DNA of 64,000 nt from the NCBI GenBank assembly GCA_019637095.1, contig JAHBWG010000033.1, forward strand, positions 1 to 64,000, in the 5' to 3' direction. The DNA is from Sandaracinaceae bacterium (GTDB taxonomy: Bacteria > Myxococcota_A > Polyangia > Polyangiales > Sandaracinaceae). The position numbers and the translations under genes are program-made. The notes under the pieces are model-generated. The model worked only from the letters and a program-made list of their open reading frames with translations, was not told the origin of the DNA and searched no databases. Each line of letters begins with the position of its first letter. The stretch's first letter is position 1. Shown piece by piece: positions 6,520 to 35,894 of the stretch.

Positions 6520-8436
6520 TCAGTTGGCGCTGAAGGAGTAGCTCGCGCCCATGCGGGGCGCGGGGAAGGACGGGAACTGGATCGCGCGCACGCGCCCCTC
6601 GACGCAGCGCTGGAACGCGGGCGTCCCGTTGCGCACGCTCGCGCCGAGCACGCGCCCGCTGCCCGCGATCGCGATGTCGATGCGGACGTTGCCGCCGCCG
6701 GAGCCCTGCGAGAGGCACGGGACCAGGCGGTTGATGTTCGCGTTCATCACGCCCGCGACCTGTCCCGCGCTCAGGCGCGCCTGGCTGCCGCCGGCCTCGC
6801 CGACGTTCCCGAGGTTCACGACCTGGTTCATCGCGTCCTCGTAGCTCGAGCCGCCGCGCGCGCCGCCGCCGCTCCGGCGGGGCCGGCTGGGATCCTGCGG
6901 CGGATCCGGCAGGAGGCCGGCGGTGCCGACGATCTCGATCTGGCCGGCCGCGTAGAGGTCGGCCAGGTCGGAGTCCGCGCGCTCGGCCTCGTCCTCGACG
7001 TCGGGGCGCGTGACGAGGAAGATCGCGACGCCGACGCCGACCGCGGCCGCGACGACGCCGAGGATCAGCGCCTTGGTCGCCATCGAGACCTTCTCGACCT
7101 TCGCGGAGCGCTCGAGCGCGACCGCGTGATCCGCGGCCTTCTTCTTGAGCTTCCACTGCTCGCAGAACTCCGCGAAGTCCGGCGCCTCACCGACCTTCTG
7201 TCGCGAGCCCGTGTCCATGTTCAAGAGGCCGTGCTCGGCGAGCACGTCGCCCTTGAGGATCAGGTTCACCAGCTCGCGCCCGGAGAACGGGCCGTGGTCG
7301 AGGTTGTCCTTCACGACCATCCAGCGCGGCGCGTCGTTCTCGGTGATCTTCGAGAGGAGGCTCGAGAGATCGACCTCGGCGCTCATCGCGGGCGCCGCGA
7401 CCGCGGGCGCGAGCGAGACGCGGAAGCTCTCCTCCACGGCGACCCGGCGCCCGACCTCGGGAGCGCCCGGCCGCGGCGGGCGCGGCGGGGCGACGCGCGG
7501 GGCGCTCGGCGCGGGCGGCGGCGTCGAGCCGATGTCGACGTCCACGTCCACCTCGACGCCGAAGTCTTCCTCGTCGTGCGAGGCGGTGACCTCCTTCTGC
7601 GCGGCGAGCGCGACGAGCGCGGCGCGCAGCGCCTCCGGCGTCTCGAAGCGTGACGACGGGTCCGCGGCGAGGCACCGCATGAGCACCTCGTCGAGCTCGC
7701 TCGTGGCCTCGGCGTGCGCCTCGGACGGCGCGACGAACTCGTCGAGGGGGCTGCGGCCGGTGAGCATCGTGTAGAGCAGCCCGCCGATCCCGAACACGTC
7801 GCTCTCTGTCGTCGGCCGGTGGCCCGCCTTGACCTCGGGCGCGAGGAACGCCTGCTCGCCCGCGCCGAGCGCGGCGGGCCCGGCCGTCTCGACCACGGCG
7901 AGGTCGACGCCGAGGCTCCCGATCTTCACGCGGCCCGATTTCGTGACGTAGACGACGGTCGGCCGCAGCGCGCCGTGACAAGACCCTTTGTCGCGCACCG
8001 CCTCGAGCGCGCGGCACACGTGCGCGATGACGTTGTACGCGCCGCGCAGGGACATCGGCTCGCCGCCGTGCGCCTTGCTCGCGACCACCTCGGCGAGGCT
8101 CTGCCCCTCGATCCACTCGTTGGCGACGTAGCGCGAGCCGCTCGCCTTGTCGGTGCCCATGCCGTAGGTCGCGACGACGTTCCGGTGCTGCAGCTCGGCG
8201 GCGACCTTGACGTGGCGCCGCAGCGTCTCGACCGCGTCCTCCGTGGCGATCAGGCCGGGCGCGAGGACCCGCACCGCGATCGCGCGCTGCGTCTTCTGAT
8301 CCTTGGCCGCGAGGATCGCCCCGAGCGAGTCCTCGCCGACCGCGCGCTCGATCACGAAGCGGCCGCCGACGACGGTCCCGGGGGCGAGGCCGGAGGGATG
8401 CGCGCCGCTCGCACGAGACGACAGAGGAGTGGGCAT
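6520..8436 (-). CDS. membrane-anchored pseudokinase with GYF-like and AgmX/PglI-type domains
   Basis: A 638-aa protein. Residues 25-285 follow the Ser/Thr kinase fold, but the catalytic sites are lost: the VAIK Lys is Arg56 (IAVRVL), the HRDLKxxN loop reads HGALRPTVV (154-162) and DFG reads SLG (174-176). The AxE/APE (FLAPE) and late kinase helices are kept. A GYF_2-like segment follows (WMVVKDNLDHGPFSGRELV), then one membrane helix (ALILGVVAAAVGVGVAIFLV) and a C-terminal AgmX/PglI-type domain with Cys-containing LVPCLSQG and FQRCVEGR. It probably acts as a scaffold or sensor across the inner membrane. The ATG at 8436 follows a GGGATCC stretch. Confidence 0.8.
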   Translation of the reverse strand: MPTPLSSRASGAHPSGLAPGTVVGGRFVIERAVGEDSLGAILAAKDQKTQRAIAVRVLAPGLIATEDAVETLRRHVKVAAELQHRNVVATYGMGTDKASGSRYVANEWIEGQSLAEVVASKAHGGEPMSLRGAYNVIAHVCRALEAVRDKGSCHGALRPTVVYVTKSGRVKIGSLGVDLAVVETAGPAALGAGEQAFLAPEVKAGHRPTTESDVFGIGGLLYTMLTGRSPLDEFVAPSEAHAEATSELDEVLMRCLAADPSSRFETPEALRAALVALAAQKEVTASHDEEDFGVEVDVDVDIGSTPPPAPSAPRVAPPRPPRPGAPEVGRRVAVEESFRVSLAPAVAAPAMSAEVDLSSLLSKITENDAPRWMVVKDNLDHGPFSGRELVNLILKGDVLAEHGLLNMDTGSRQKVGEAPDFAEFCEQWKLKKKAADHAVALERSAKVEKVSMATKALILGVVAAAVGVGVAIFLVTRPDVEDEAERADSDLADLYAAGQIEIVGTAGLLPDPPQDPSRPRRSGGGARGGSSYEDAMNQVVNLGNVGEAGGSQARLSAGQVAGVMNANINRLVPCLSQGSGGGNVRIDIAIAGSGRVLGASVRNGTPAFQRCVEGRVRAIQFPSFPAPRMGASYSFSAN

Positions 8437-8528
8437 GGATCCCGCAAATTACCGGACCCGGGGGGCCAAGCTCAACCGAGACCGCACCGCGGCGCGGGGA
8501 GAGGTGGGGCGGCGTGCTACCTTGGGGT

Positions 8529-9494
8529 ATGGTCGAGACGCGGCTGCGCACCCTCGGGCTCGTGATGGCGCTGGGGCTCGCGGGTTGTCCGGGCTCCCAC
8601 GGGGCGAGCGACGCAGGCGCGCGCGACGGCGCGGTCGGACGGGACGCGGGCGGGCCGGCGAGCGGTGGCTGCGTGGCGTACGACGCGCACGGCGAGGGCG
8701 CGTGCCGGCTCTTGCTCGGGTTCGGCTGGGACGGCGTGGCGTGCGCGTCCATCGGCGGGTGCGAGTGCGTGGGCCGAGACTGCGGCGCGCTCTTCGGCGA
8801 GCTCGACGCGTGCGAGCGCGCCCACGCGGGCTGCGCGCGGTGCGAGCGCATGGACGTGCGCGAGGAGGGCGGCTGCGAGCCGGTGCGCGGCTTCTTCTGG
8901 GATGGCGCGGACTGTCGCCTCCTCAGCGGCTGCTCGTGCGTGGGCCGCGACTGCGCGCGCGTCTTTCCCACCGACGACGCGTGCCGCGCCGCTTACCGCG
9001 CATGCCTCGCGCCTTCGCCCGTCTGCCGCACGGATCGGGACTGCCCGTCGCGCGAGTGGTGCGTCGAGGGCGCGTGCGTGCCGTGCGACGACAGCGGGAC
9101 GCGCTGTGACATCCTCTGCCCGAGCGGCTGGGGGCTCTACGAGCGCAACGGCTGCACCCCGTGCGAGTGCGCGCCCCCGAACGAGTGCGTGAGCGACGCG
9201 GACTGCCCGTTCGGGGCGCTCGAGCGGCGCTGCATGGCCGGCGCGTTCTGTGCGCTGGGGTGTACGCCCGGCGATCCGAGCTGCTGCTTCGGGAACCTCT
9301 GCGTCGCGTCCGGCTGCGAGAGCACGTCGCCGCCCCACGGGTGCCTCGCGCGCGGCTGTCCGCGGGGCGCGGTGTGCGAGCTCGATGTCGGCTGCGCGCC
9401 GAGCTCGTGCGGCTGCTCGAGCGCATCCGAGGGCTGGTTCTGCACCGACGACTGCGGCGGCGGCACCTGCGTCGCGTCGGGGGCCGCGCCGTGA
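8529..9494 (+). CDS. Cys-rich DAG-linker lipoprotein
   Basis: A 321-aa secreted lipoprotein. The signal peptide ends in a lipobox (ALGLAGC), then a DAG-rich linker, then many Cys residues in repeated blocks. Two consecutive segments are similar (GACRLLLGFGWDGVACASIG and GGCEPVRGFFWDGADCRLLS), each followed by CxCVGRDC, which indicates an internal duplication. Later parts resemble Cys-rich modules of myxobacterial surface proteins (CRTDRDCPSREWC). The ATG at 8529 was chosen because it begins the signal peptide directly. Function unknown. It is divergent from the pseudokinase gene across 92 bases. Confidence 0.75.
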   Translation: MVETRLRTLGLVMALGLAGCPGSHGASDAGARDGAVGRDAGGPASGGCVAYDAHGEGACRLLLGFGWDGVACASIGGCECVGRDCGALFGELDACERAHAGCARCERMDVREEGGCEPVRGFFWDGADCRLLSGCSCVGRDCARVFPTDDACRAAYRACLAPSPVCRTDRDCPSREWCVEGACVPCDDSGTRCDILCPSGWGLYERNGCTPCECAPPNECVSDADCPFGALERRCMAGAFCALGCTPGDPSCCFGNLCVASGCESTSPPHGCLARGCPRGAVCELDVGCAPSSCGCSSASEGWFCTDDCGGGTCVASGAAP

Positions 9495-9505
9495 TCGCGT
9501 CTTCG

Positions 9506-9533
9506 CAATCTACATTGCGTGCAACGTAGATTG
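9506..9533. terminator. bidirectional hairpin between convergent genes
   Basis: CAATCTAC (9506-9513) pairs with GTAGATTG (9526-9533), and inside it TTGC pairs with GCAA after a single mismatch. The hairpin is AT-rich against a very GC-rich background and fills the 47-base gap between two convergent genes. No long T-run follows on either strand, yet the placement supports a shared terminator. Confidence 0.55.
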
Positions 9534-9541
9534 TGATGCGC

Positions 9542-10375
9542 TCATCGCTGCGAGCGGCGGACGTAGTCGGGCACCTCGCCCTGCGCGGGGAGCGTCTGGC
9601 CGGGCGGGACGTAGCCGGGCGGCATCCCGCTCGGGCCGAGCGCGGGCAGCGTGTGCGCCGGCGCCACCTGCCCGGGGATCGTGGACGGGCCGATCGCCGG
9701 CGTGACGATCCCCGGCGCCTGCGCCCCGGGCGGCAGCGCCCCCGGCGCGGGCGTCCCCGCGCCCCAGTCCGCCACCCACTCGCCGTCGGTGCGGCTGCCC
9801 GGCGTGCCGCTCGCGCGGTACTCGATCGACGCCGTGATCGTACGCGGCGCGCCCTCGATGGGGGAGGGCAGGCGCAGCGCTTCCGCCCGTCGCGTCATGC
9901 AGGCGACGTCCTCGGCGCGCAGGCCCGGCGCGTTCACGCTCGCGCTCGTGACGCGCCCGGTCGGGGTCGCGCGCACGCTGACGCGGACGGTGAACTGGCC
10001 GCGGACCGTCTCGCGCGAGCCCTCGGAGATGCAGTCCGTCGGCGTGCCGAACGCGGCGCGCAGCGCGTCGGAGTAGTCGGGCTCGCGCGCGCTCGCGGGG
10101 CCCTCGACCGCTGCGACGGGCGCGGTCGCCGGCGCGGCGGTGAGGCCGGGTGTCCCGCGCGGCGCGGGTCCCGCGGGCGGGCTCGGCCGGCGGCTCGGGT
10201 CGCGCGCGCCCGGGCCCGGCAGATCGAGTGAGGGCGCCGGCGCGTGGACGTCGGTCGGCGAGCCCGCGCCGCGCTGTCGCGCCACGGGGACGGGCGCAGG
10301 GGCACCCGTCTCACAGCCCGCCCCGAGGGCGCAGGCCAGGAGGAGCCCGGCACCCGCGTGCCGGACCCGCGTCAC
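9542..10375 (-). CDS. lipoprotein with AgmX/TonB-like C-terminal domain
   Basis: A 277-aa lipoprotein (lipobox ALGAGC near residue 20) with a Pro/Ala-rich linker. A folded domain follows with FTVRVSVRATPTGRVTSASV, a Cys pair (DCISEG and VACMTRRAE) and ALRLPSP, the layout seen in AgmX/PglI and TonB C-terminal domains. The last 70 residues are Pro/Gly-rich, with repeated PPG and PGQ motifs. GTG at 10375 overlaps the helicase TGA as GTGA, so it is the third gene of the coupled set 12231-9542. The pseudokinase 1 kb away carries a similar C-terminal domain, but a link is only inferred. Confidence 0.7.
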   Translation of the reverse strand: MTRVRHAGAGLLLACALGAGCETGAPAPVPVARQRGAGSPTDVHAPAPSLDLPGPGARDPSRRPSPPAGPAPRGTPGLTAAPATAPVAAVEGPASAREPDYSDALRAAFGTPTDCISEGSRETVRGQFTVRVSVRATPTGRVTSASVNAPGLRAEDVACMTRRAEALRLPSPIEGAPRTITASIEYRASGTPGSRTDGEWVADWGAGTPAPGALPPGAQAPGIVTPAIGPSTIPGQVAPAHTLPALGPSGMPPGYVPPGQTLPAQGEVPDYVRRSQR

Positions 10376-21978: not shown

Positions 21979-23861
21979 TCAGGCGACGATGGGCAGGGCG
22001 GCCTCGCGCTCGGCGACGCGCGCCGGCGGCGCGGCCTCGGCGCGCGCGATGGCCGCCTGCTCCTCGTCGGTGGGCCGCACGAGCGAGGAGAGGACCTTGC
22101 GGTAGAGCGCGTCGGCCGAGGGGACGAGATCCTTGGCCTCGATCGCCACGCGGCGCAGCAGCGCGGGCATGTACGGCGCGACCTCGCGGACGGTCGCGGC
22201 GACCTTCGGGGCGTCCTTCGCGAGGAACGTGCGCGCCGACGCGGCGGCGCGCGCGGCGTGGACGCGCGCGCGCCCGAGCCGGCTCGCTCGCACGAGGGGG
22301 CCGACCTCGTGGATCAGGTTGGCGCTGATCACCGCGCCGGTGTGCGGCGAGCGGTGGAGCGAGCGCGCGTAGCGTGTGCCCCTCACGAACGCGCGGACCT
22401 CGTCCTCGGTCAGGCCGTACGCGTCGAGCGCGGCGGCGTGCTCGGCGAGCGCGCGCTGGCGCGCCTTGAAGAGGAACATCTGGACGCGCGAGTAGAAGTT
22501 CACCGCGCCGTCGCCGCTCGTCTCGACCGCGCAGAAGATCGCGTCGGGGTAGCGCTCCGTGATCAGCGACTGCACTCCGTCGGAGACGCCGCTCGAGGGC
22601 ATGCAGCCGAAGGGCTTCACGCTGAGCGTCATCGTCGCCTTCTGGTGCAGGACGTTCAGGATGAGCTTGGCGACCTCCATGTGGCCCTCGCCGCCGCGCA
22701 GCTCCTGGTGGTAGTGGGCGGTGCCGACCCGCGCGACCTCGTCCATGTCGGGCAGGTGGTGGCCGTGCAGGCCCATCAGGTGTGCCCACGACTGCCACCA
22801 CACGCGCAGGGCGAGCTCGCCGAGGAAGAGGCCCGCGAGCGTGAGCCCGACGTCCGAGCCCTCGAGCCCGAACTTGCCGCCGTCCGCGCCCTCGAGGTTC
22901 ATCCGCGCCTTGGTGTCGTGGCGGAACTCCCAGAGGTTGTAGAGGAGCAGGTTCGCGATCACCTGGATGCCCACCTCGGCGCCCTCCTGCTCGAGGAAGC
23001 GCTGGAGGTGGTAGTTGCCGTCGCCCTCGGTGGTCATCGCCCAGAACTCGCCGAGCACCGCGACGCTCGGCTTGGCGCGCAGGCGATCGACCTCGACCGC
23101 CGCGAAGATGCGCCGACAGCGCCAGATCGCCGCCAGGATCGAGGTGCGGTGCTCGAGCGCGCGGTAGATCTCCTTCTTGGCCGCGGCCGAAGCGCGGTCC
23201 GTCGCGCCGGGCTCGACCTCGTAGGGGCGCAGGCGGTAGCCGATGAGGTTGATGATGTCGCCGGCGAAGAGCGCCTTGCCGATGGTCACGAAGAACGTCT
23301 GGTCCAGGACCAGGCCGAGCTCCTCGCCGGTCGCCTGCTTCATGCCGCCCGTCTGCTGGAAGAGCAGCACGCGGAAGCCGTCGAAGCCCGCGTCGCGCAG
23401 GGCCTTGCGGTACTCGGTGACGTACATGCCGAAGCGGCAGGGGCCGCACGCGCCCGCGGTCATGAACAGGTAGTGCTCGACGATGTGCTCGGGGCTCAAG
23501 CCCTCCTCGTCGCGTAGCCGGCAAAGCTCCTTGACGAGGTTACCGACCGTGAAGTAGGTCGGGTTGCACTGCCCGCGGTTGCCGAACTCCTTGCCGAAGC
23601 GCAGCGCGGTCGTGTCGGGGCAGTCGAGCGCGCGGACCTGGTAGCCCAGGCCCTTGAGCGCGCCCTCGACGATCTCGTCGTGCGCGATCGTGAGCCCGCC
23701 GATCAGCATCGTGGTGTGCGGCCGCTGCTTCGCGGTGAAGAACGGGTCGATCATCTCGTCCCGCCAGTGATCCTTGCCGCGCCCGGCGTCGAGACCGAGC
23801 GCCGCGCGCTCGGCCGCCTCGAACTTCGCCAGCTCCGCCTCGATGTCCAGCTCCGTCGTCG

Positions 23862-23865
<4 letters not shown>
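21979..23865 (-). CDS. 2-hydroxyacyl-CoA dehydratase-like subunit (HgdB/BcrB-type)
   Basis: A 628-aa protein of the 2-hydroxyglutaryl-CoA dehydratase D-component family. Conserved stretches include LIGGLTIAHDEIVEGALKGLG, FGNRGQCNPTYF, MTAGACGPCRFGMY and KPFGCMPSSGVSDG, whose Cys residues probably bind an iron-sulfur cluster. The ATG at 23865 overlaps the activase stop as ATGA, so the pair is coupled. It probably works with the upstream ATP-dependent activase in radical dehydration or a related two-electron reduction. The substrate is unknown and no CoA-transferase gene is nearby. Confidence 0.8.
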
Positions 23866-27461
<3,596 letters not shown>

Positions 27462-27550: not shown

Positions 27551-30500
27551 TCAATCGGACTCGACCGGGCGGTGCCGCAGCGTGCTCCACAGGCGGCCTC
27601 GACCGAGCAGGAGCCGGCGCAGCGCGTGGGTCACGGGCGAGCCGAGGAGGGGCTCGACGCGCTCGATGTCGGTGGCGGCGTCGACGTGGGGCGCGAGCGC
27701 GGCCACGACGGTCTCGTCGTCCGCGTCGTCGGGCAGCTCGGCGCCGGCGCGGAGCGCGTCGACGAGGTGCTCGACGGCGAGCTCTACGCGATCGAGGGCC
27801 GCGCCATCGAGCTCGGCGTCGGCGTCCGGGTGAGGCTCGTCGAAGTCGCCTTCGAGCGCGCGGTCGAAGCGCTCCCACACGGCGTGCCGTGCGCTCGCGT
27901 GGTCGGGCCCGAGCGCGAGCGCTCTATCCGTCGCGCGGCGCGCGAGCGAGCGCCACCCCCACCACCACGCCGAGTGCACCAGGTTGAGGAGCATCCACGG
28001 CCGCGGCGCGGCCCTGCGCGCGTAGTCTCGCAGCCAGATCAGGCACGCGAGCGAGTGCCCGGCGGCGAGCAGCGCGTACCCGAACGAGCCCCAGGTCTGG
28101 TCGTGCCGCCGCAGCCACCGGCCATGTCGGAGCCACGCCCCGAAGATCGCCCACGTACGGCGGGCGGCGCCGAGCCGCTCGATCCAGCCGGCGACCGCGG
28201 CCACGCCCGCGGGTCCGAGCGCGTCGGGCGCGCGCAGCAACCCGCCTGCGCGATCCAGCTCCGCTTCGCCTGCCACCTCGGCCCAGGCCCAGCCGATCGC
28301 GGGGCTCGCGTCCGGGTCGCCCATCCGCGCTTCGACGACGTCGAGCGCGCGCTCGAGCCGGGGTCGCTCCCCGAAGGCGCGCAGCGCCGCTGTCAAGGAA
28401 GATTGCGATACTTCTGGCGTGTCGAGCAGCTGTCCCAGCGCGTGGATCGCGCCGTCCCAGTCCCCGCGTCCGGCCTCGACGCGGACGCGCGCGGACGCCC
28501 GCTCGGGGGGCGCGAACGCGAGCCCACGGACGTCGAGCACGCGCGCCGCTCCCGCGGCGTCCCCGGTCTCGAGCCGCAGGTCGATCAGCGCCGAGACGGC
28601 GTAGGCGTGGCTCGGCAGCAACGCGGCCGTGCGCTCGAACGCCTCGATCGCGCCGGCCCGGTCGCCGGCGATTCGGCGCGCATCGGCGAGGTACAGGTGG
28701 CTCAGGCCGTCGGCGGGTGCGTGCGCCACGAGGAGCTCGGCCTGGCGGACGAACTCGTCCTGTCGCCCGAGATGGTCGAGCCAATCGCACACGGCGCGAC
28801 GGCCCCATGCGTAGCCGGGTGCGCGCTCCAGGACGCCGAGCATGTCGTCGATCGCCTCGGCGACCTCGCCACGGCGCGCGCGCACCCAGGCGCGCCGCCC
28901 GTCGATGGGGTGCGGGACCGGGCCGACCCACTCCGTCGGCGGACAGGCGGCGATCGCCTCGTCGAACCGTCCGGCCTCGGCGAGCACGACGGCGAGCAGA
29001 TCTGCCGCGCGCCCCTCGCGCGGCGAGCGCGCGAGCGCGGCCCGCAGGGCGCGGGCCCGCTCGTCGACAGCGTCGCGTCCGAGCACGAGGGCCAGGCGCA
29101 GCCAGCGGATCGGGTCGCGGTCGTCTTCGGCGAGCTGGGCGCGCAGGCGTCCCGCGGCTTCGTCGGCGCGTCCGAGCTCGTGCGCGTATCCTGCGAGCAG
29201 ATCGAAGGCCGCCTCGTCCAGGGTGTCCTCGTCGAGCGCGGCGAGCAGCTCGTCGAGCGCGTCGCCGCGTGCTCCCTCGGCCCACGCGACCCGAGCCCGC
29301 TCGGCGCGGAGGCTGCTCGAGCGCGGCGTCACCGTGAGCGCATCGTCGAGGACGGCGCGCGCCGCGACGAGATCGCCGCGCTCCCGAAGGAGCGCGGCGA
29401 GTCGAAGGCGCGGCTCGATGCTGCGGGGTGAGAGCGCGATGAGGGCGCGCAGGCTGGCCGCCTCGGCGGCGGCGTCGCCCGCGATCCGGTGTGCGTCGGC
29501 GTGGAGGCGATGGAGTCGGAACCACCGAGGGAACTGCGCGAGGGCTCGTTCGCAGAGGGCGAGGGCTTCACCGGCCTCGCCCGCGTCCAGGCGCGCGTCG
29601 ATGAGCGCCTCCCAAGCGTCGGGGCGGTGCGCGGCGCGCGCGAGCAGGGCCTCGAGGCGCTCGCGTCGCTCCCCGTGCGGGAGGCACGCCGCCGCGCGCG
29701 CGGCCTGGAGCAGACCTGGGCCGGCGCTGATCTTCGTGTCGAGCAGAGACAAGACGAAGCGCACGTCCTCGCGCGCGTCCTCTGCGCCGCCGCCGAGCGC
29801 GGCGAGCTCGTCGATCGCGATCGCGTCGTCGACCCACAGCTCGAGGGCGCGGCGCAGCGACGCGCGCGCGCCCTCGACGTCGCCGGCCCGCGCCAGCAAG
29901 TGCCCCAGGACGCTGTGGCTGGCGTCGTCGTTCGGGGCGCGCGCCACGGTGTCGCGGGCGAGCTCGAGCGCGTGATCCATCGCGCCGAGCGAGGCGTGCA
30001 CGAGCGCGAGCTCGCGGCGAGCCCAGCGATCCTCGGGGCGGGCCCTCAGCCAGGACTCGAGCCGAGCCCGCGCGTCGTCGTCGTCGCGGCCGCGCAGCCA
30101 CCGGCACAGCTCGACCAGCAGGCCGGGCTCCTCGGGCAGCGCGTCGAACGCCGCCGTGACGCGCGCCGTCGCCGCCTCGGCGCCCTCGAGCTGCGCGAGG
30201 ACGTCCGCCAGCATGCCGAGCAGGTCCGAGCGCCACGGCGCGAGCGCGAGCGCCTCCTCGAGCGCGCTGCGCGCCGGCGCGAGCGCGCCGACCGCGAGGT
30301 GGACCTGCGCCGCGGTGGTGTGGCGATCGATCGCGGGCGCCGTCCGCTCGCGGCTCGCCTCGAGCCAGCGCATCGCGGCGGCCGGATCGCCGGCGCCGAT
30401 CTGCGCGCGCGCGATGAGGAGCGCGAGCTCTCCGTCCTCGGGCCGGCGCTCGGCGAGCTCCTCGAGCACCCGCACGCCGCGCTCGGGGTTGCCCGCGTCG

Positions 30501-32530
30501 AGGTAGGCGGCGTGGAGGGTCCGCGCGGGGCCGAGCGCGCGATCCCCGGCGTGGGCCACGCGCTCCTCGAGCAGCGCGAGGGCCTCCTCGCCGCGGCCTT
30601 CGGTGCATGCCCGCTCGTAGTAGGCCATCGCGAAGTGGTCGTCCGCGACGGTGAGGCAGGCGGCGAGCCGGTAGCTGTCGAGGATCGCGGTCGCGCGCGA
30701 CCCGTCGTCCCAGGAGGCCTCGAGATCGGCCAGGACGTGGTGGGCCATGGCGTGGAGCGGCGCGATCCGCAGGGCTCGCCGCAGCAGTCGACGCGCCTCG
30801 TCCACGTGGGCGACCTCGTGGCGCAGGTCCTCCGCCATCGACGTGAGCAGCGCGGGGTCATCGATGCGCACATGCGCCCTCCAGAAGTCGAGGCGCGCCG
30901 CGAGCGGCTGCGTGTGCCGCATGGCCTCGCCCCGCCGCAGGACGAACGCGCCGCACTCGGGGTGGAGCGCCATCAGCGCGTCGTACAGGGGCACGCAGTC
31001 CCCGCGCCGCCCCTCGTAGTGGGCGAGCGCGAGCGCGCCCGAGAGCGCGATGCGCGAGCCGGGACCCTCCTCGGCGAGCGCGGCGGCCGCGGCCCGCGCG
31101 GTCTCGACGTCGTGTGCGTCGAGCGCGCTGTCGATCGCCACGAGGCGGTCCCACAGCCGCGGCGTCGGTCCGAGGTCGAGCGCCTCGAGCGCACCGGCCC
31201 GCCCCCGGGGCGCGAGGACGAGCCCGTGGGGCCCGAACCACGCCTGCTCCTCGAGCGCCTCCTCGGCGAGCTCCACGAGGCTCGTCGTCGAAGGGTCGCG
31301 GAGGAGGAGCGTGCGCCGCGCGAGGTCGTACCCGACGACCGCGGTGCTGTGGGCCTCGACGGTGTGCGCGATGCTCAGAAGGAACGGGAAGCCGGCGTCG
31401 ATCAGGAGCCGGGCACGCGCGAAGTCGACGTCGAGCTGCCGGACGGCGTAGCCCCGCGCGGTCGCCCAGTCGACGGCGCGATGCAGCGGCGTGCCCGCGT
31501 AGCAGATCGCGTCCGCGATCTCGACGTGATCGACGGGGTCGCCGTGAAAAGCGCAGAGCGAGGCGAGGCTCGACGGCAGGCAGGTGACGTGGCGCTGGCG
31601 GATGTGCGGCACTCCGTCGAGCTCGACCCGTGGCAGCGGTGTGCCCTCCTCGAGCGCGGCGAGGGCCGCCGCGAAACGCTCGGGGAAGCCGCGACCGGCG
31701 TCACGCGCGAGCGCCTCGGCGCGGCGGTACGCGCCGCGCAGGTAGGCGGCCTCCGCGCGGCTCCGCGCGATCACCTGGGCGAGCGGGCGCTCGCAGAGGC
31801 GCGCGGCCGTCGCGGCGAGCTCCAGATCTGCTTCGCACGCGTCGTAGCGGCGCAGGGTGAACGCGAGCTCCGCGCGGTGCATCGCGAGCTCGAAGCTCTC
31901 GGGGGTGCGGGGATGCTCGAGCGAGGCGAGCGCCTCTTCGTGTCGGCCGAGCTCACCGAGGAGCGTAGCGCGCTTCGAGAGCAGGCCCGTGCTCGCGAGG
32001 CCGGCGTCGAGGGCCTCCTCGACGATGGCGAGCGCGCCGGCTCGGTCGTCGGCGGCGGAGGCGATCCAGGCGCGGTGCTTCGCGACCCACGCGCGATCGG
32101 CGCCGGCGGCGGCGGCGCGCTCGAGCTCGGCGCGGGCGCGGCCGAAGTCGCGCAGGCTCGCGAGGAAGCCGGCGCGCGCGGCGTGGGCGTCGCCGTACCC
32201 GTCGAGCACCGCGGCGCGGTGTCGCATCCACTCGAGGGCGTGCCAGGGCCCGCGGCGCCCGTGGATGACCAGGGCCATGAAGTGGGCCGCCTCCGCGTCC
32301 GCCGGCGCGTCGCGGTACGCGCGGAACGTCAGCGCCTGAGCGAGGCCTCCCGCGCCGAGCCGCATGGCGAGCCGCGCCGCGAGGATCCGCCCGCGCGGTG
32401 CCGGCCAGAGACGCAGATCGTCGGGCATCCCTGCGCCGAGCGCGCTGGCGAACCGACCCGCGTCGTAGAGCGCGCGTACGGCCTCGAGCGGCTCCGATGG
32501 AGGCGGCAGGGGGAGGGTCACGTGGGTCAT
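27551..32530 (-). CDS. giant TPR protein with embedded C39-like peptidase domain
   Basis: A 1659-aa protein made mostly of TPR helical repeats. Between residues 304 and 429 a C39-like papain-fold domain interrupts them: Gln312, Cys317 (HVTCLPSSLAS), His394 (VEAHSTAVVGYD) and Asp412 (LLLRDPST) fit the oxyanion Gln and Cys-His-Asp triad. More than 20 TPR pairs follow. No signal peptide is visible. In ABC exporters C39 domains cut Gly-Gly leaders, but here no transporter is fused. The ATG at 32530 gives MTHVTLPLPPP; an ATG at 32575 would add 15 residues. It is one of the largest genes of the window and stands upstream of the activase operon. Confidence 0.82.
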   Translation of the reverse strand: MTHVTLPLPPPSEPLEAVRALYDAGRFASALGAGMPDDLRLWPAPRGRILAARLAMRLGAGGLAQALTFRAYRDAPADAEAAHFMALVIHGRRGPWHALEWMRHRAAVLDGYGDAHAARAGFLASLRDFGRARAELERAAAAGADRAWVAKHRAWIASAADDRAGALAIVEEALDAGLASTGLLSKRATLLGELGRHEEALASLEHPRTPESFELAMHRAELAFTLRRYDACEADLELAATAARLCERPLAQVIARSRAEAAYLRGAYRRAEALARDAGRGFPERFAAALAALEEGTPLPRVELDGVPHIRQRHVTCLPSSLASLCAFHGDPVDHVEIADAICYAGTPLHRAVDWATARGYAVRQLDVDFARARLLIDAGFPFLLSIAHTVEAHSTAVVGYDLARRTLLLRDPSTTSLVELAEEALEEQAWFGPHGLVLAPRGRAGALEALDLGPTPRLWDRLVAIDSALDAHDVETARAAAAALAEEGPGSRIALSGALALAHYEGRRGDCVPLYDALMALHPECGAFVLRRGEAMRHTQPLAARLDFWRAHVRIDDPALLTSMAEDLRHEVAHVDEARRLLRRALRIAPLHAMAHHVLADLEASWDDGSRATAILDSYRLAACLTVADDHFAMAYYERACTEGRGEEALALLEERVAHAGDRALGPARTLHAAYLDAGNPERGVRVLEELAERRPEDGELALLIARAQIGAGDPAAAMRWLEASRERTAPAIDRHTTAAQVHLAVGALAPARSALEEALALAPWRSDLLGMLADVLAQLEGAEAATARVTAAFDALPEEPGLLVELCRWLRGRDDDDARARLESWLRARPEDRWARRELALVHASLGAMDHALELARDTVARAPNDDASHSVLGHLLARAGDVEGARASLRRALELWVDDAIAIDELAALGGGAEDAREDVRFVLSLLDTKISAGPGLLQAARAAACLPHGERRERLEALLARAAHRPDAWEALIDARLDAGEAGEALALCERALAQFPRWFRLHRLHADAHRIAGDAAAEAASLRALIALSPRSIEPRLRLAALLRERGDLVAARAVLDDALTVTPRSSSLRAERARVAWAEGARGDALDELLAALDEDTLDEAAFDLLAGYAHELGRADEAAGRLRAQLAEDDRDPIRWLRLALVLGRDAVDERARALRAALARSPREGRAADLLAVVLAEAGRFDEAIAACPPTEWVGPVPHPIDGRRAWVRARRGEVAEAIDDMLGVLERAPGYAWGRRAVCDWLDHLGRQDEFVRQAELLVAHAPADGLSHLYLADARRIAGDRAGAIEAFERTAALLPSHAYAVSALIDLRLETGDAAGAARVLDVRGLAFAPPERASARVRVEAGRGDWDGAIHALGQLLDTPEVSQSSLTAALRAFGERPRLERALDVVEARMGDPDASPAIGWAWAEVAGEAELDRAGGLLRAPDALGPAGVAAVAGWIERLGAARRTWAIFGAWLRHGRWLRRHDQTWGSFGYALLAAGHSLACLIWLRDYARRAAPRPWMLLNLVHSAWWWGWRSLARRATDRALALGPDHASARHAVWERFDRALEGDFDEPHPDADAELDGAALDRVELAVEHLVDALRAGAELPDDADDETVVAALAPHVDAATDIERVEPLLGSPVTHALRRLLLGRGRLWSTLRHRPVESD

Positions 32531-32749: not shown

Positions 32750-33367
32750 TCAGGCGTGGGCCCAGCCGTGCGCGGCGTCCGGGTCGGTGAAGGAGGCGAT
32801 GCGGCACCAGGGGCAGCGCAGCGCGAGCGACGAGGCGAGGAACCCGAGCGCGCTCGACGGATGCACGAGCGCGACCCGCGTGACGTGCCGTTGCGCAGAG
32901 AGGATGCCGCCGAGCTCGTCGATGAACGCGCGATCGGGCCGCTCTCCCGGGGGCAGGGGCACGACGAGCGCGCTCGCGCGAGGATCCCTCGCGGCCCGCT
33001 CGAGCTCGCCGAGCGCGGCGGCGAGCGTCGGCGCCGCGCTCACCGCGGGCGAGGCGGGCGCGATGGAGCGGCGGTCGGCCACCTGGCGCTCCGCGCGGAC
33101 CTCGACCCGCGGCAGGCGCAGCGAGAGGCTCGACGCGAAGAAGCCGACCGCGGCATGCGAGGAGACGAGCAGGAGGCGCGCGGGCGGCGTGGCCGCGATC
33201 GCGCGCGCGACCGCGTCGGCGTCCGCTCGCAGGTGCTCGAGGTCCGGGGCGACGACGCGCAGGACGCGCGCGCCGCGGGTCTGCATGGTGGTCAACGCGC
33301 GTCGCACCTGCGCGGCGGCGGGCGAGTCGCTCCGCAGCTCGAGCTCGTAGATGGGCTCGTCGCTCAT
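32750..33367 (-). CDS. tandem SpoIIAA/STAS-like protein, unknown role
   Basis: A 205-aa protein with an internal duplication. The first half contains RLLLVSSHAAVGFFASSLSL, the second half RVALVHPSSALGFLASSLAL followed by CPWCRIASFTDPDAAHGWA. This ending resembles SpoIIAA-like (STAS/SEC14-type) proteins, in which a strand, a helix and a FxDxxxAxxW motif close the domain. Only the second copy has the CPWC pair. The ATG at 33367 overlaps the upstream stop as ATGA. It is the last gene of the operon that starts at 35894. Confidence 0.65.
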   Translation of the reverse strand: MSDEPIYELELRSDSPAAAQVRRALTTMQTRGARVLRVVAPDLEHLRADADAVARAIAATPPARLLLVSSHAAVGFFASSLSLRLPRVEVRAERQVADRRSIAPASPAVSAAPTLAAALGELERAARDPRASALVVPLPPGERPDRAFIDELGGILSAQRHVTRVALVHPSSALGFLASSLALRCPWCRIASFTDPDAAHGWAHA

Positions 33368-34455
33368 CGCGTCCTCGCGGCGAGCCGTGTGAGCACGTCG
33401 GTGAGGGCGGCGAGATCGTCGGTGGTGGTGCCCGCGCCGGCCGAGGCGCGCACCGCGCCGCCCTCGGCGAGCGTGCCGAGGTGCGCGTGCGCCGCGGGCG
33501 CGCAGTGCAGGCCCGCGCGCACGACGAGGTCGAACGCGCGATCGAGGATCTCCTCGACCTCGAGGGGCGCGACGCCGTCGATCGCGAACAGCACGATCGG
33601 CAGCTCGCCCGCGGCGAGGACGCGCGCGCCGCTGCGGTCCACCGCGCGTTGGAGCGCCGCGGCGAGGGGCGCCGGGTCGAACGGCTCGGCGAGCGCGTGG
33701 CGCGCGGCGCGTCCGAGCGCCGCGATCGCGGGCAGCGCGTGGGTGCCCGCCTCGAGCCGCCCGGGCAGCTCCGCGGGCATCTCGGGGTCGGCCGCGTCCG
33801 CGCCGGTGCCGCCGTAGGCGCGCGGCTCGAGCGCGACGCCGCCGCGCACGACGAGCGCGCCGGCGCCGGCGGGCGCCCGCAGCGCCTTGTGCGAGGAGAA
33901 CGCGATCAGCTCCGCGTCGCCGACGTCGAGCGCGCCGCCGAGCCCCGCGGTCTGCGCGCAGTCGACGACGGTGCGCGCGCCGCGGGCCCGCGCGAGCTCG
34001 GCGAGGGCGGCCACCGGCTGGAGGGCGCCGGTCACGTTGCTCGCGTGTCCGACGACGACGAGCTCGATCTCGGCGGGCCACTCGCGCGCGCTCGCCGCGA
34101 CGTCGACGCGCCCGCGCGCGTCGTGCGGCAGCGTCCACACCGGGACCCCGAGCGCGTGGACGGGGCGCCGCGCCGCGTTGTGGAGGAGCGGGTCGACGGC
34201 GACCGCGCGCGGCGCGGGACGCAGCCCGAGGATCGCCTGGTTGAGCGCGGCGGTGGCCCCCGACGTGAAGCAGACGGTGCCGCCGCCGGCGAGCGCGGCG
34301 ACCGCGCCTCGCGCCTCGGCGAGCGCGGCGCTCGCGCCCGCCGCCACGCGGTGGTGTCCGCGTCCCGGTGAGCCGAGGGCGGCCGCGTCTGCGAGCGCGG
34401 CGAGCGCGGCGGGCAGGCGCGGCAGGCCGGTCGCGGCGTGGTCGAGGTAGATCAC
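33364..34455 (-). CDS. cysteine desulfurase-like class V aminotransferase
   Basis: A 363-aa PLP enzyme of the SufS/CsdA type. The N-terminus reads IYLDHAATGLPRLP; PLP-binding residues include NQAILGL, GHASNVTGALQP, DCAQTAGLG and the Lys in FSSHKALRAPAG. The C-terminal RAGLHCAPAAHAHLGT keeps the group II Cys expected to accept sulfur, followed by GGAVRASAG. It would release sulfur from cysteine for a cofactor or thio-product. GTG at 34455 overlaps the upstream stop as GTGA and gives the normal family N-terminus; GTG at 34467 is a possible alternative. Its neighbours are not the usual Suf genes. Confidence 0.82.
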   Translation of the reverse strand: MIYLDHAATGLPRLPAALAALADAAALGSPGRGHHRVAAGASAALAEARGAVAALAGGGTVCFTSGATAALNQAILGLRPAPRAVAVDPLLHNAARRPVHALGVPVWTLPHDARGRVDVAASAREWPAEIELVVVGHASNVTGALQPVAALAELARARGARTVVDCAQTAGLGGALDVGDAELIAFSSHKALRAPAGAGALVVRGGVALEPRAYGGTGADAADPEMPAELPGRLEAGTHALPAIAALGRAARHALAEPFDPAPLAAALQRAVDRSGARVLAAGELPIVLFAIDGVAPLEVEEILDRAFDLVVRAGLHCAPAAHAHLGTLAEGGAVRASAGAGTTTDDLAALTDVLTRLAARTR

Positions 34456-34736
34456 GCCCCGAGCCACCGCGCCGCCGTCTCGCGCGCGAGCTCTACGGCG
34501 CGCCCGCGCGCGGCGAGCCGCACCGTGAAGCGCACGCGCGGCTCGCCGACGATCCCGGTGAGGAGGAACGCGCCGGGCACGTCGAGCCGGAAGAACGGGC
34601 GCGGCAGATCGGCGAGCACGGTCCGGCTCGTCACGCCCTCGACGCGATCGAGATCCGCGAGGGCGACGCCCCGCGGCAGGTGCAGCTCGACGATGCGGTC
34701 CCCGCCGAGGCAGTCACGTGTCAAGACGACTTCCAT
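34452..34736 (-). CDS. 94-aa protein of unknown function
   Basis: A short, soluble protein that begins MEVVLTRDCLGGDRIVELHL and ends with an Arg/Ala-rich helix. The central part (FFRLDVPGAFLLTGIVGEP) looks like a compact beta-sheet domain. A single Cys occurs near the N-terminus. No family is recognised. The stop overlaps the cysteine desulfurase start as GTGA, so the two proteins are likely made together. A role as a sulfur acceptor or as a partner of the desulfurase is only a guess from position. Confidence 0.6.
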   Translation of the reverse strand: MEVVLTRDCLGGDRIVELHLPRGVALADLDRVEGVTSRTVLADLPRPFFRLDVPGAFLLTGIVGEPRVRFTVRLAARGRAVELARETAARWLGA

Positions 34737-34743
34737 TCGAGAG

Positions 34744-35400
34744 TCACCCGGCGACGCGCCGCGCGACGACCTCGCAGCGATCGGCGCCGGCGGCGCGGCA
34801 GGCGACCTCGCGCGCGTTGAAGCGCCCGGGCGCGTGGAAGAGCTGCTGGTAGAAGGCGTCGTCGAGGGCTGGCCGCGCGGCGATGTCCCCGTGGTAGACG
34901 AGGTTCATGATCCCGGCGACGCCGCCCGTGGCGAGGAAGCACACGCCGCCCGAGTCGCGCCTCGGGTAGTCGGCGAGGTAGCCCTCGGACTCGTAGCTGT
35001 TCGCGATCGAGACGGTGAGCTCCTCGCCCCCTCGCAGCGCCTCGACGCGCCACCGGCCCCAGCCGAGCGCGTTGACGACCCCGACGATGCCGTGGACCCA
35101 GTCCTCTGTCGACTCGACCATCGGCATGACGACGGCCTCCCACTCCTGCGAGAGCATGATCCCGCCGAACGTGTTGAACGCGCAGACGTGGCCCGCCTCG
35201 ACGAGGGAGGCGCGGGCGACGGCCGCGGCCTCGGGCGACCGCGCCTCCGCGGCGTGCAGCAGCGCGAACGAGGTGCGGTTGTAGAACGTCGCGAAGTGTC
35301 GCGTGAGGTAGAGGCCGAACGCCGGGATGAGGCCCTCCTCGTTGCCGACGAGCGGGAGGGTCCCCACCGCGCGTACGATCGCGTCGCCGTCGACGGCCAT
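34744..35400 (-). CDS. V4R-domain protein (second copy)
   Basis: A 218-aa protein with a C-terminal V4R-like segment (REVACRAAGADRCEVVAR), whose Cys pair resembles the metal-binding end of 4-vinyl reductase domains. The N-terminal part is helical (LIPAFGLYLTRHFATFYNR) and the middle holds GHVCAFNTFGGIMLSQEWE. V4R domains bind small hydrophobic molecules in BchJ and in regulators such as DmpR. ATG at 35400 shares its first base with the upstream stop (TGATG) and has GGAGG 7 bases before it. It is paired with the next gene upstream, another V4R protein. Confidence 0.68.
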   Translation of the reverse strand: MAVDGDAIVRAVGTLPLVGNEEGLIPAFGLYLTRHFATFYNRTSFALLHAAEARSPEAAAVARASLVEAGHVCAFNTFGGIMLSQEWEAVVMPMVESTEDWVHGIVGVVNALGWGRWRVEALRGGEELTVSIANSYESEGYLADYPRRDSGGVCFLATGGVAGIMNLVYHGDIAARPALDDAFYQQLFHAPGRFNAREVACRAAGADRCEVVARRVAG

Positions 35401-35894
35401 CAGCGCACCTCCACGCGGAACGCGCAGCGCTCGGCACCGCACGCGAAGCACTCGGCCTCGCGCACCCGGACCCGCTCCGGCGTCAGCCCGTGCGCGACGA
35501 TCACGGCCGCGGCGACGAAGCCCTCGACGAACGCGCAGGCCGGGGTCGGGCGCGTACCCCGCGTCGCGACCCAGCCCATCGCATAGTGCGAGCTTGGGCT
35601 GTACGCGAGCCCGCCGCGCGGACCGACGCCCGCGAGGTCGAGCGTGCCGAACCCGAGCTGTCGGAACAGGGCGCTCGCGCGCCCGAGGACCTCGGCGCCT
35701 GGGCCGCCGAGCTCCGCGAGCGAGAGGCGGACCGCCTCCTGCGCCGCGGCGCGCTGCACGTCGCCCGCGTCCTCGCCGAGCCCGGCCTCGATCGCCTCCT
35801 GGAGCGCGCAGTTGTAGAAGTGACAGTGGAACACCAGCGGCTGCCCTCCGAGCAGCGCCGTGTTGCTGTCCGCGTCGTGTGCGATCTCGATCAC
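35400..35894 (-). CDS. V4R-domain protein (first copy, operon leader)
   Basis: A 164-aa protein. The C-terminus carries the V4R signature with two Cys pairs (VREAECFACGAERCAFRVEV) and is preceded by FVAAAVIVAHG, the helix before the Cys motif. The N-terminal HCHFYNCALQEAI contains further His/Cys residues that could bind metal. It is likely a small-molecule sensor or carrier. GTG at 35894 has a very good ribosome site, GGAGG, six bases upstream. It starts a five-gene coupled operon ending at 32750. Confidence 0.72.
   Translation of the reverse strand: MIEIAHDADSNTALLGGQPLVFHCHFYNCALQEAIEAGLGEDAGDVQRAAAQEAVRLSLAELGGPGAEVLGRASALFRQLGFGTLDLAGVGPRGGLAYSPSSHYAMGWVATRGTRPTPACAFVEGFVAAAVIVAHGLTPERVRVREAECFACGAERCAFRVEVR

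Follow-up and report, generated by a model that had tools for sequence, protein, structure and literature searches.

A five-gene operon with a V4R pair and a cysteine desulfurase-like enzyme

We analyzed a 64,000-nucleotide stretch of DNA from a Sandaracinaceae bacterium (assembly GCA_019637095.1, contig JAHBWG010000033.1, positions 1 to 64,000), hereafter called the window, which lies on contig C125 of a 9.25-Mb genome (G000). On its minus strand lie five coupled genes that encode, in order, a first V4R-fold protein of 164 amino acids (aa) (V4Ra, 35400-35894), a second V4R-fold protein of 218 aa (V4Rb, 34744-35400), a 94-aa protein with a single cysteine, C9 (34452-34736), a pyridoxal phosphate (PLP)-dependent cysteine desulfurase-like enzyme of 363 aa from the EF2568/SufS branch (33364-34455), and a 205-aa tandem-repeat protein known only from this five-gene operon (32750-33367). 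The V4Ra and V4Rb genes have one base in common (TGATG), 7 bases separate V4Rb from the 94-aa gene, and the last two junctions are GTGA and ATGA overlaps. A longer alternative start at 34467 would give a desulfurase of 367 aa, but the GTG at 34455 is favored because relatives begin with MIYLDH or MSYFDH. All five open reading frames, their strand and their junctions were read directly from the sequence, which bears out an earlier note that had described a five-gene coupled operon here. That note had also reported an absence of standard Suf/Isc genes beside the operon, and indeed no Suf/Isc scaffold gene (SufBCD, IscU) was seen among the window's neighboring genes; the sole NifU_N (IscU-type) match of the genome is on contig C128. 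Promoter and terminator scans gave no match, which is weak evidence for this type of genome.

The same five genes were found in identical order in loci L022 and L126 (one genus of the window's own family), L023 and L043 (another family), and L042 (a Polyangiaceae metagenome-assembled genome [MAG]); a Sandaracinaceae MAG is among the closest operon-bearing relatives of the window. The order is thus kept in three further genus-level lineages, four Polyangiales lineages with the window's own, and is not a product of chance. This answers the question, raised with the earlier note, of whether the genes stay together in relatives. Identity to the window proteins is 65 to 71% for V4Rb, 57 to 74% for the 94-aa protein, ∼51 to 56% for the desulfurase, and 26 to 36% for the 205-aa protein. 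The operon is real but narrowly distributed, since true copies of the 205-aa gene were found in 4 of 145 genomes of the order Polyangiales, always within this operon; a fifth match (in G103) was weak, lay antisense over an Isc operon, and was discarded as spurious. An internal tandem repeat was detected in the four 205-aa members (z 4.9 to 15.9). The protein had been described as tandem and SpoIIAA-like. The repeat stands, but the SpoIIAA-like/STAS identity was rejected, as the window protein had no Pfam match up to an E value of 5, the four members had none up to an E value of 10 except DUF6584 at 0.22, and a profile search of the PDB returned only a chance-level hit.

The V4R pair belongs to a widespread V4R-fold family

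V4Ra passes the cutoff of the Pfam V4R family (PF02830; 34.6 bits, cutoff 31), whereas V4Rb remains below it with 24.7 bits, and 15 of 19 V4Rb relatives match PF02830 at an E value of ≤1 (best, 3.6e-6). In most relatives, V4Ra and V4Rb form one fused protein of ∼400 to 420 aa, which is split into two in the window. We judged the fold on an AlphaFold2 (AF2) model of one fused relative, L028 (410 aa; mean predicted local distance difference test score [pLDDT], 96). Domain A of the model resembles the phenol sensors PoxR and MopR with a Z score of ∼17 (PoxR: Z, 17.3; root mean square deviation [rmsd], 3.2; 176 aligned residues) and the V4R protein MJ1460 with a Z score of 11.8, and domain B resembles Bet3-type subunits of TRAPP (Z, ∼9 to 9.7; rmsd, 3.3 to 3.7). 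Both domains of the pair are accordingly modeled with the V4R/Bet3 fold, and V4Rb is best described as a predicted V4R-fold protein that is not a member of the Pfam V4R family. The former description of two V4R proteins therefore holds for V4Ra by profile and for V4Rb only by the fold of its fused relative. We dropped the idea that the invariant cysteine of V4Rb corresponds to the acylated cysteine of Bet3, as the positions seem to mismatch.

Among 284 genomes of the phylum searched with the single V4Rb sequence, 17 had a match; with a profile, 83 of the 318 genomes in the class had one. A wider scan covered 84,980 species and gave 117 relatives. The best 80 of these fall in Myxococcota, Acidobacteriota, Planctomycetota, Sericytochromatia, sulfur-oxidizing Gammaproteobacteria, Bacteroidota, Calditrichota, Spirochaetota, haloarchaea, and Heimdallarchaeota. 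The V4R pair is thus a distinct V4R-fold family whose members occur across many bacterial phyla and also in archaea, Heimdallarchaeota included. In archaeal loci L060, L071, and L089, two of them from Heimdallarchaeota, a split V4Ra-V4Rb pair lies beside a 447- to 464-aa protein, an arrangement of relevance to the origin of the V4R/Bet3 fold.

Residue conservation was evaluated on alignments of 19 V4Rb relatives and 64 fused relatives. In domain A of the fused relatives, H26, N31, and H111 are invariant (64/64) and C27 is present in 63 of 64 sequences; in domain B, Y239, C270, T274, F275, S281, and E333 are invariant (64/64). The equivalents in the window are H23, C24, N28, and H103 of V4Ra and C73, T77, F78, S84, and E137 of V4Rb, where the motif reads CAFNTFGGIMxSxEW. 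In an alignment with MopR, PoxR, and MJ1460, V4Ra residues C120, E146, C149, and C157 coincide with MopR C155, E178, C181, and C189, which we take to be zinc ligands. This four-residue site is fully kept in V4Ra but is not conserved across the family, and V4Rb C154, E198, C201, and C209 correspond to it by an analogous motif only.

A family of single-cysteine proteins accompanies the V4R pair

A profile built from neighbors of V4R genes gathered 54 proteins related to the 94-aa protein of the window. Family members have ∼100 aa, usually adjoin the V4R pair, and contain one near-invariant cysteine, C9 in the window, which is present in 49 of the 54; the five members without it look truncated at their start. 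In genomes outside the set used to build the profile, the family was found beside V4R genes in 13 of 15 new loci from three phyla, with the gene on the opposite strand in one of the 13. Two kinds of fusion were observed. In L030/L073, the single-cysteine domain and a cysteine desulfurase form one 531-aa protein, and in L053 (Sericytochromatia; 7667-8116) a fusion of the domain with a 2[4Fe-4S] ferredoxin is flanked by the V4R pair on one side and an IscS-like desulfurase on the other. No Pfam family matches the window protein or is common to the members. The AF2 model of the 94-aa protein is confident (mean pLDDT, 93), and a comparison with solved structures gave no Foldseek hit under an E value of 0.24 and VIA Z scores of ≤8.0, which is background level; this lack of a match does not establish a new fold. 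Gammaproteobacteria L080, L088, L091, L093, and L110, several of which are sulfur oxidizers, carry consecutive genes for a single-cysteine protein, a ∼130-aa protein, and a tandem V4R protein without a desulfurase. Small proteins of ∼65 to 80 aa, which form several separate clusters and are absent from the window, often lie just upstream of V4R genes (L082:3846-4055, L045, L062, L195:2568-2762, and others). In L081, L087, and L104, the adjoining gene belongs to a cluster that contains phasins, and that of L081 matches Pfam Phasin_2.

The desulfurase of the operon

The enzyme of the window matches Pfam Aminotran_5 (2.6e-43). Its best NCBIfam family is TIGR01977 (EF2568 type), matched over the whole length at 1.2e-66 and 225.3 bits versus a cutoff of 377, and the operon desulfurases of the different lineages score 207 to 240 bits against the same cutoff. 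The SufS subfamily TIGR01979 gave 102.9 bits versus a cutoff of 475.1. In alignments with solved SufS-type enzymes, H96, K194, and C322 (numbering of the 367-aa form) match the catalytic histidine, the PLP-binding lysine, and the loop cysteine of group II (SufS-like) cysteine desulfurases. The protein is thus a cysteine desulfurase-like enzyme with conserved catalytic residues and a predicted activity; its former label, SufS type, is only approximately right, as TIGR01977 is the best family. It is an extra enzyme, as Isc genes are also present elsewhere in the genome, and G000 contains 16 matches to class V aminotransferases. SelD exceeds its family cutoff in G000, and none does so in the operon-bearing genomes G150, G188, and G302. 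The selD gene of G000 (C138:38192-39124) contains an in-frame TGA and possibly encodes a selenoprotein SelD.

Desulfurases have joined the V4R module repeatedly

To place the window in a broader context, we considered 110 nonredundant V4R loci and counted a gene as near when it was on the same strand and within three genes of a V4R gene. A desulfurase was near in 10 of the 110 loci, and desulfurases made up 10 of 331 near genes versus 3 of 661 more distant genes of the same loci (odds ratio, 6.8; p 0.0016). Two further loci, L241 and L242, come from Acidobacteriota, the phylum of the Holophagae genome, and combine V4R genes, a group II desulfurase, and a single-cysteine protein in a swapped order, which brings the total to 12 distinct lineages. 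When mapped onto the V4R tree, the desulfurase trait needs 7 changes, and at least 4 of them are forced by strongly supported branches. The enzymes themselves fall in three separate places: those of the window type branch beside SufS; L029, L030, L063, and L195 form a DndA-like group, with L220 nearby; and L053 has an IscS. Gene order also varies: the small protein precedes the desulfurase in most Myxococcota and in L053/L063, the desulfurase precedes the small protein in L241/L242, and it lies upstream in L220. As different enzyme lineages were recruited to the same partners, shared ancestry of a single operon or chance is hard to invoke. The V4R-desulfurase partnership therefore arose several times in distant bacteria, and this repeated recruitment is the strongest argument that the V4R module is served by sulfur chemistry. 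The earlier suggestion of sulfur transfer, or of a sensing pathway linked to a hydrophobic ligand, is strengthened as regards transfer: the recurrent recruitment, with one fusion to the 94-aa family, makes sulfur transfer tied to the V4R pair likely. Of the five-gene set, the V4R pair alone is ancient and broadly distributed; the set is a regional version of a broader module, which consists of the V4R pair and a single-cysteine protein, mostly without a desulfurase.

Neighbors of V4R genes in relatives point to signaling. Kinases with a PAS-HisKA-REC-REC architecture precede the fused V4R gene in L035 to L038. In Calditrichota, a protein of the ODP family (PF19583, oxygen-binding diiron type) is encoded directly upstream of the tandem V4R gene (L101:1799-3244, and also L109 and L111), with an 11-base overlap between the two genes in L101 and L109. 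A GAF-SpoIIE phosphatase identified by Pfam (L057:1664-3520) lies directly downstream of the tandem V4R gene and suggests a partner-switching output; the distance is 5 to 7 bases both there and in L067, whose downstream protein (7659-9809) was assigned by clustering only. Response regulators, recognized by reading of the sequence, precede the V4R gene in L241 and L242.

A possible sulfur-loaded sensor and its alternatives

The reading that we favor, tentatively and short of calling it probable, is that the operon supplies a desulfurase together with a carrier and their client, the last being the two-domain V4R protein split over two genes. The PLP enzyme would strip cysteine of its sulfur and bear it as a persulfide on the loop residue C322, and C9, the only cysteine of the 94-aa protein, would accept this persulfide. 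The 94-aa carrier would then load or maintain a center, be it a persulfide, an iron-sulfur (Fe-S) cluster, or a metal-thiolate, on the invariant His, Cys, and Glu residues of the V4R pair. The pair might act as a sensor or signaling adaptor whose state depends on this sulfur-containing center, and the 205-aa tandem-repeat protein may carry a local output in the lineage of the window. The anatomy, the fold, the invariant residues, and the independent association of desulfurases with the module are observed; catalysis, the acceptor role of C9, the V4R pair as recipient, and sensing are the steps that we infer here. A bolder version, which we consider doubtful, extends the proposal to a widespread and so far undescribed prokaryotic module in which the V4R pair would hold a sulfur-dependent cofactor at its invariant His and Cys residues, loaded as persulfide from a desulfurase via the single-cysteine proteins, a new family. 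The signal of such a V4R sensor would be sulfur or Fe-S status and not a hydrocarbon.

Several observations weigh against a sulfur-loaded sensor. Most V4R/single-cysteine loci are without a desulfurase, so the enzyme is not needed in cis, and a housekeeping enzyme would serve there. The 94-aa protein has no recognized fold or known sulfur carrier motif, and the archaeal split pairs (L060, L071, and L089) and the Calditrichota V4R proteins have no recognizable small partner. It is also conceivable that a metal or an organic ligand occupies the V4R sites and that sulfur plays no part. In addition, a kinase-rich cluster of neighbors was not significantly enriched near V4R genes (p 0.08), and for this reason the sensor role is proposed conditionally. 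It is possible, although on balance unlikely, that the V4R pair and the single-cysteine protein together sense a ligand or redox state with no need of sulfur, while the coregulated desulfurase matures the Fe-S cofactor of another protein. The scarcity of desulfurases across the loci fits such a sensor, as do the likeness of the V4Ra-type domain to MopR and PoxR and the redox-sensing role of V4R cysteines in MsvR (PMC3729527). In contrast, the recruitment of three desulfurase clades and the fusion of one to the single-cysteine domain argue for a direct partnership, and Isc genes already exist elsewhere in the genome.

Somewhat more doubtful to us is that the V4R pair is itself an enzyme, with a His/Cys/Glu active site that would use sulfur (or release cysteine for the desulfurase) to build or break a small thio-compound, in the manner of ATC hydrolase, which cleaves a C-S bond. 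Residues invariant across bacteria and archaea suggest an active or cofactor site rather than a variable ligand pocket, and ATC hydrolase has been reported to be similar to V4R (PMC5847659). However, no match to ATC hydrolase (PF14196) was found in the window's own genome at an E value of ≤1 or among the V4Rb relatives, and the neighbors in other lineages include many signaling proteins and no shared pathway. A selenium version of the module, in which the EF2568-type enzyme would be a selenocysteine lyase feeding selenium, is very improbable: EF2568, the type member of TIGR01977, has been proposed to be such a lyase (PMC2276186), and SelD is present in the genome of the window, but G150, G188, and G302 carry the operon without a SelD above the family cutoff, and other lineages use DndA- or IscS-like enzymes. 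Least credible of all is an ordinary myxobacterial cluster in which V4R and desulfurase are functionally unlinked. High gene density and the many paralogues of large genomes, such as the 16 class V aminotransferase matches of G000, speak for such a chance neighborhood, yet the order of overlapping genes is conserved in four genus-level lineages, and the association recurs in other phyla with other desulfurases, in other gene orders, and in one fusion.

Comparison with known systems

V4R domains have been described as sensors of hydrophobic ligands or of redox state (PMC2253512, PMC3729527). MopR, PoxR, and DmpR are XylR_N-V4R sensors within NtrC-type regulators and share the fold of domain A of the fused relative (Z, ∼17 over ∼175 residues) and, by alignment with V4Ra, the four metal ligand positions. 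Unlike them, the 164- and 218-aa proteins of the window consist of V4R only, without an AAA+ or DNA-binding domain, and the pair has two V4R domains, the invariant HC..N, H, and CxFxTF residues, and single-cysteine and desulfurase partners. MsvR, the redox regulator of methanogens, also combines a V4R domain with conserved cysteines tied to the redox response (PMC3729527), but it has a helix-turn-helix domain and is methanogen specific, and the best match in the window reached 19 bits versus a cutoff of 220. TRAPP Bet3/TRAPPC3 and archaeal V4R proteins (PMC2253512) have the V4R/Bet3 fold, which domain B of the fused relative resembles with a Z score of ∼9, but no vesicle machinery was seen near the window operon and the conserved residues differ. 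The 4-vinyl reductase family BchJ (TIGR02019) was likewise considered, and the score of 12.9 bits was below the cutoff of 74.3.

Dedicated desulfurase-carrier relays are exemplified by SufS-SufE/SufU, CsdA-CsdE, and IscS-TusA. As in these relays, the desulfurase gene of the window adjoins that of a small protein with one conserved cysteine; the small protein, however, matches no known carrier in Pfam, and its presumed client is the V4R pair. EF2568-type (TIGR01977) desulfurases and putative selenocysteine lyases are the best family match over the whole length, with catalytic residues kept, but the members of the window operon are below the family cutoff and have V4R genes, not selD or yedF, as neighbors. 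The usual description of V4R domains is that of pockets for small hydrophobic molecules and of likely ancestors of TRAPP Bet3, and few of their ligands are known. We found no open-access paper that mentions both a V4R domain and a cysteine desulfurase, in a search that covered few subscription papers; the author of the earlier note likewise knew of no described system with this gene set. The system combines known kinds, a V4R sensor and a desulfurase-carrier relay; the partnership points to a sensing or cofactor-loading system not yet described, with an apparent need for a sulfur supply of its own, and a categorically new sulfur-loaded sensor is possible. The V4R pair with strictly conserved His and Cys residues, a single-cysteine family outside Pfam, and repeatedly recruited desulfurases would together offer a testable cofactor and function for a family of bacterial and archaeal proteins.

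Genes downstream of the operon

A gene for a 1,659-aa protein with many tetratricopeptide repeats (TPR) and an internal C39-like peptidase domain (Pfam, 9.5e-9) lies directly downstream of the operon on the minus strand (27551-32530), after a gap of 219 bases. Further on, two adjoining minus-strand genes (21979-27461) encode proteins of 1,199 and 628 aa, whose starts resemble, by eye, an acyl-CoA dehydratase activase/HgdC pair.

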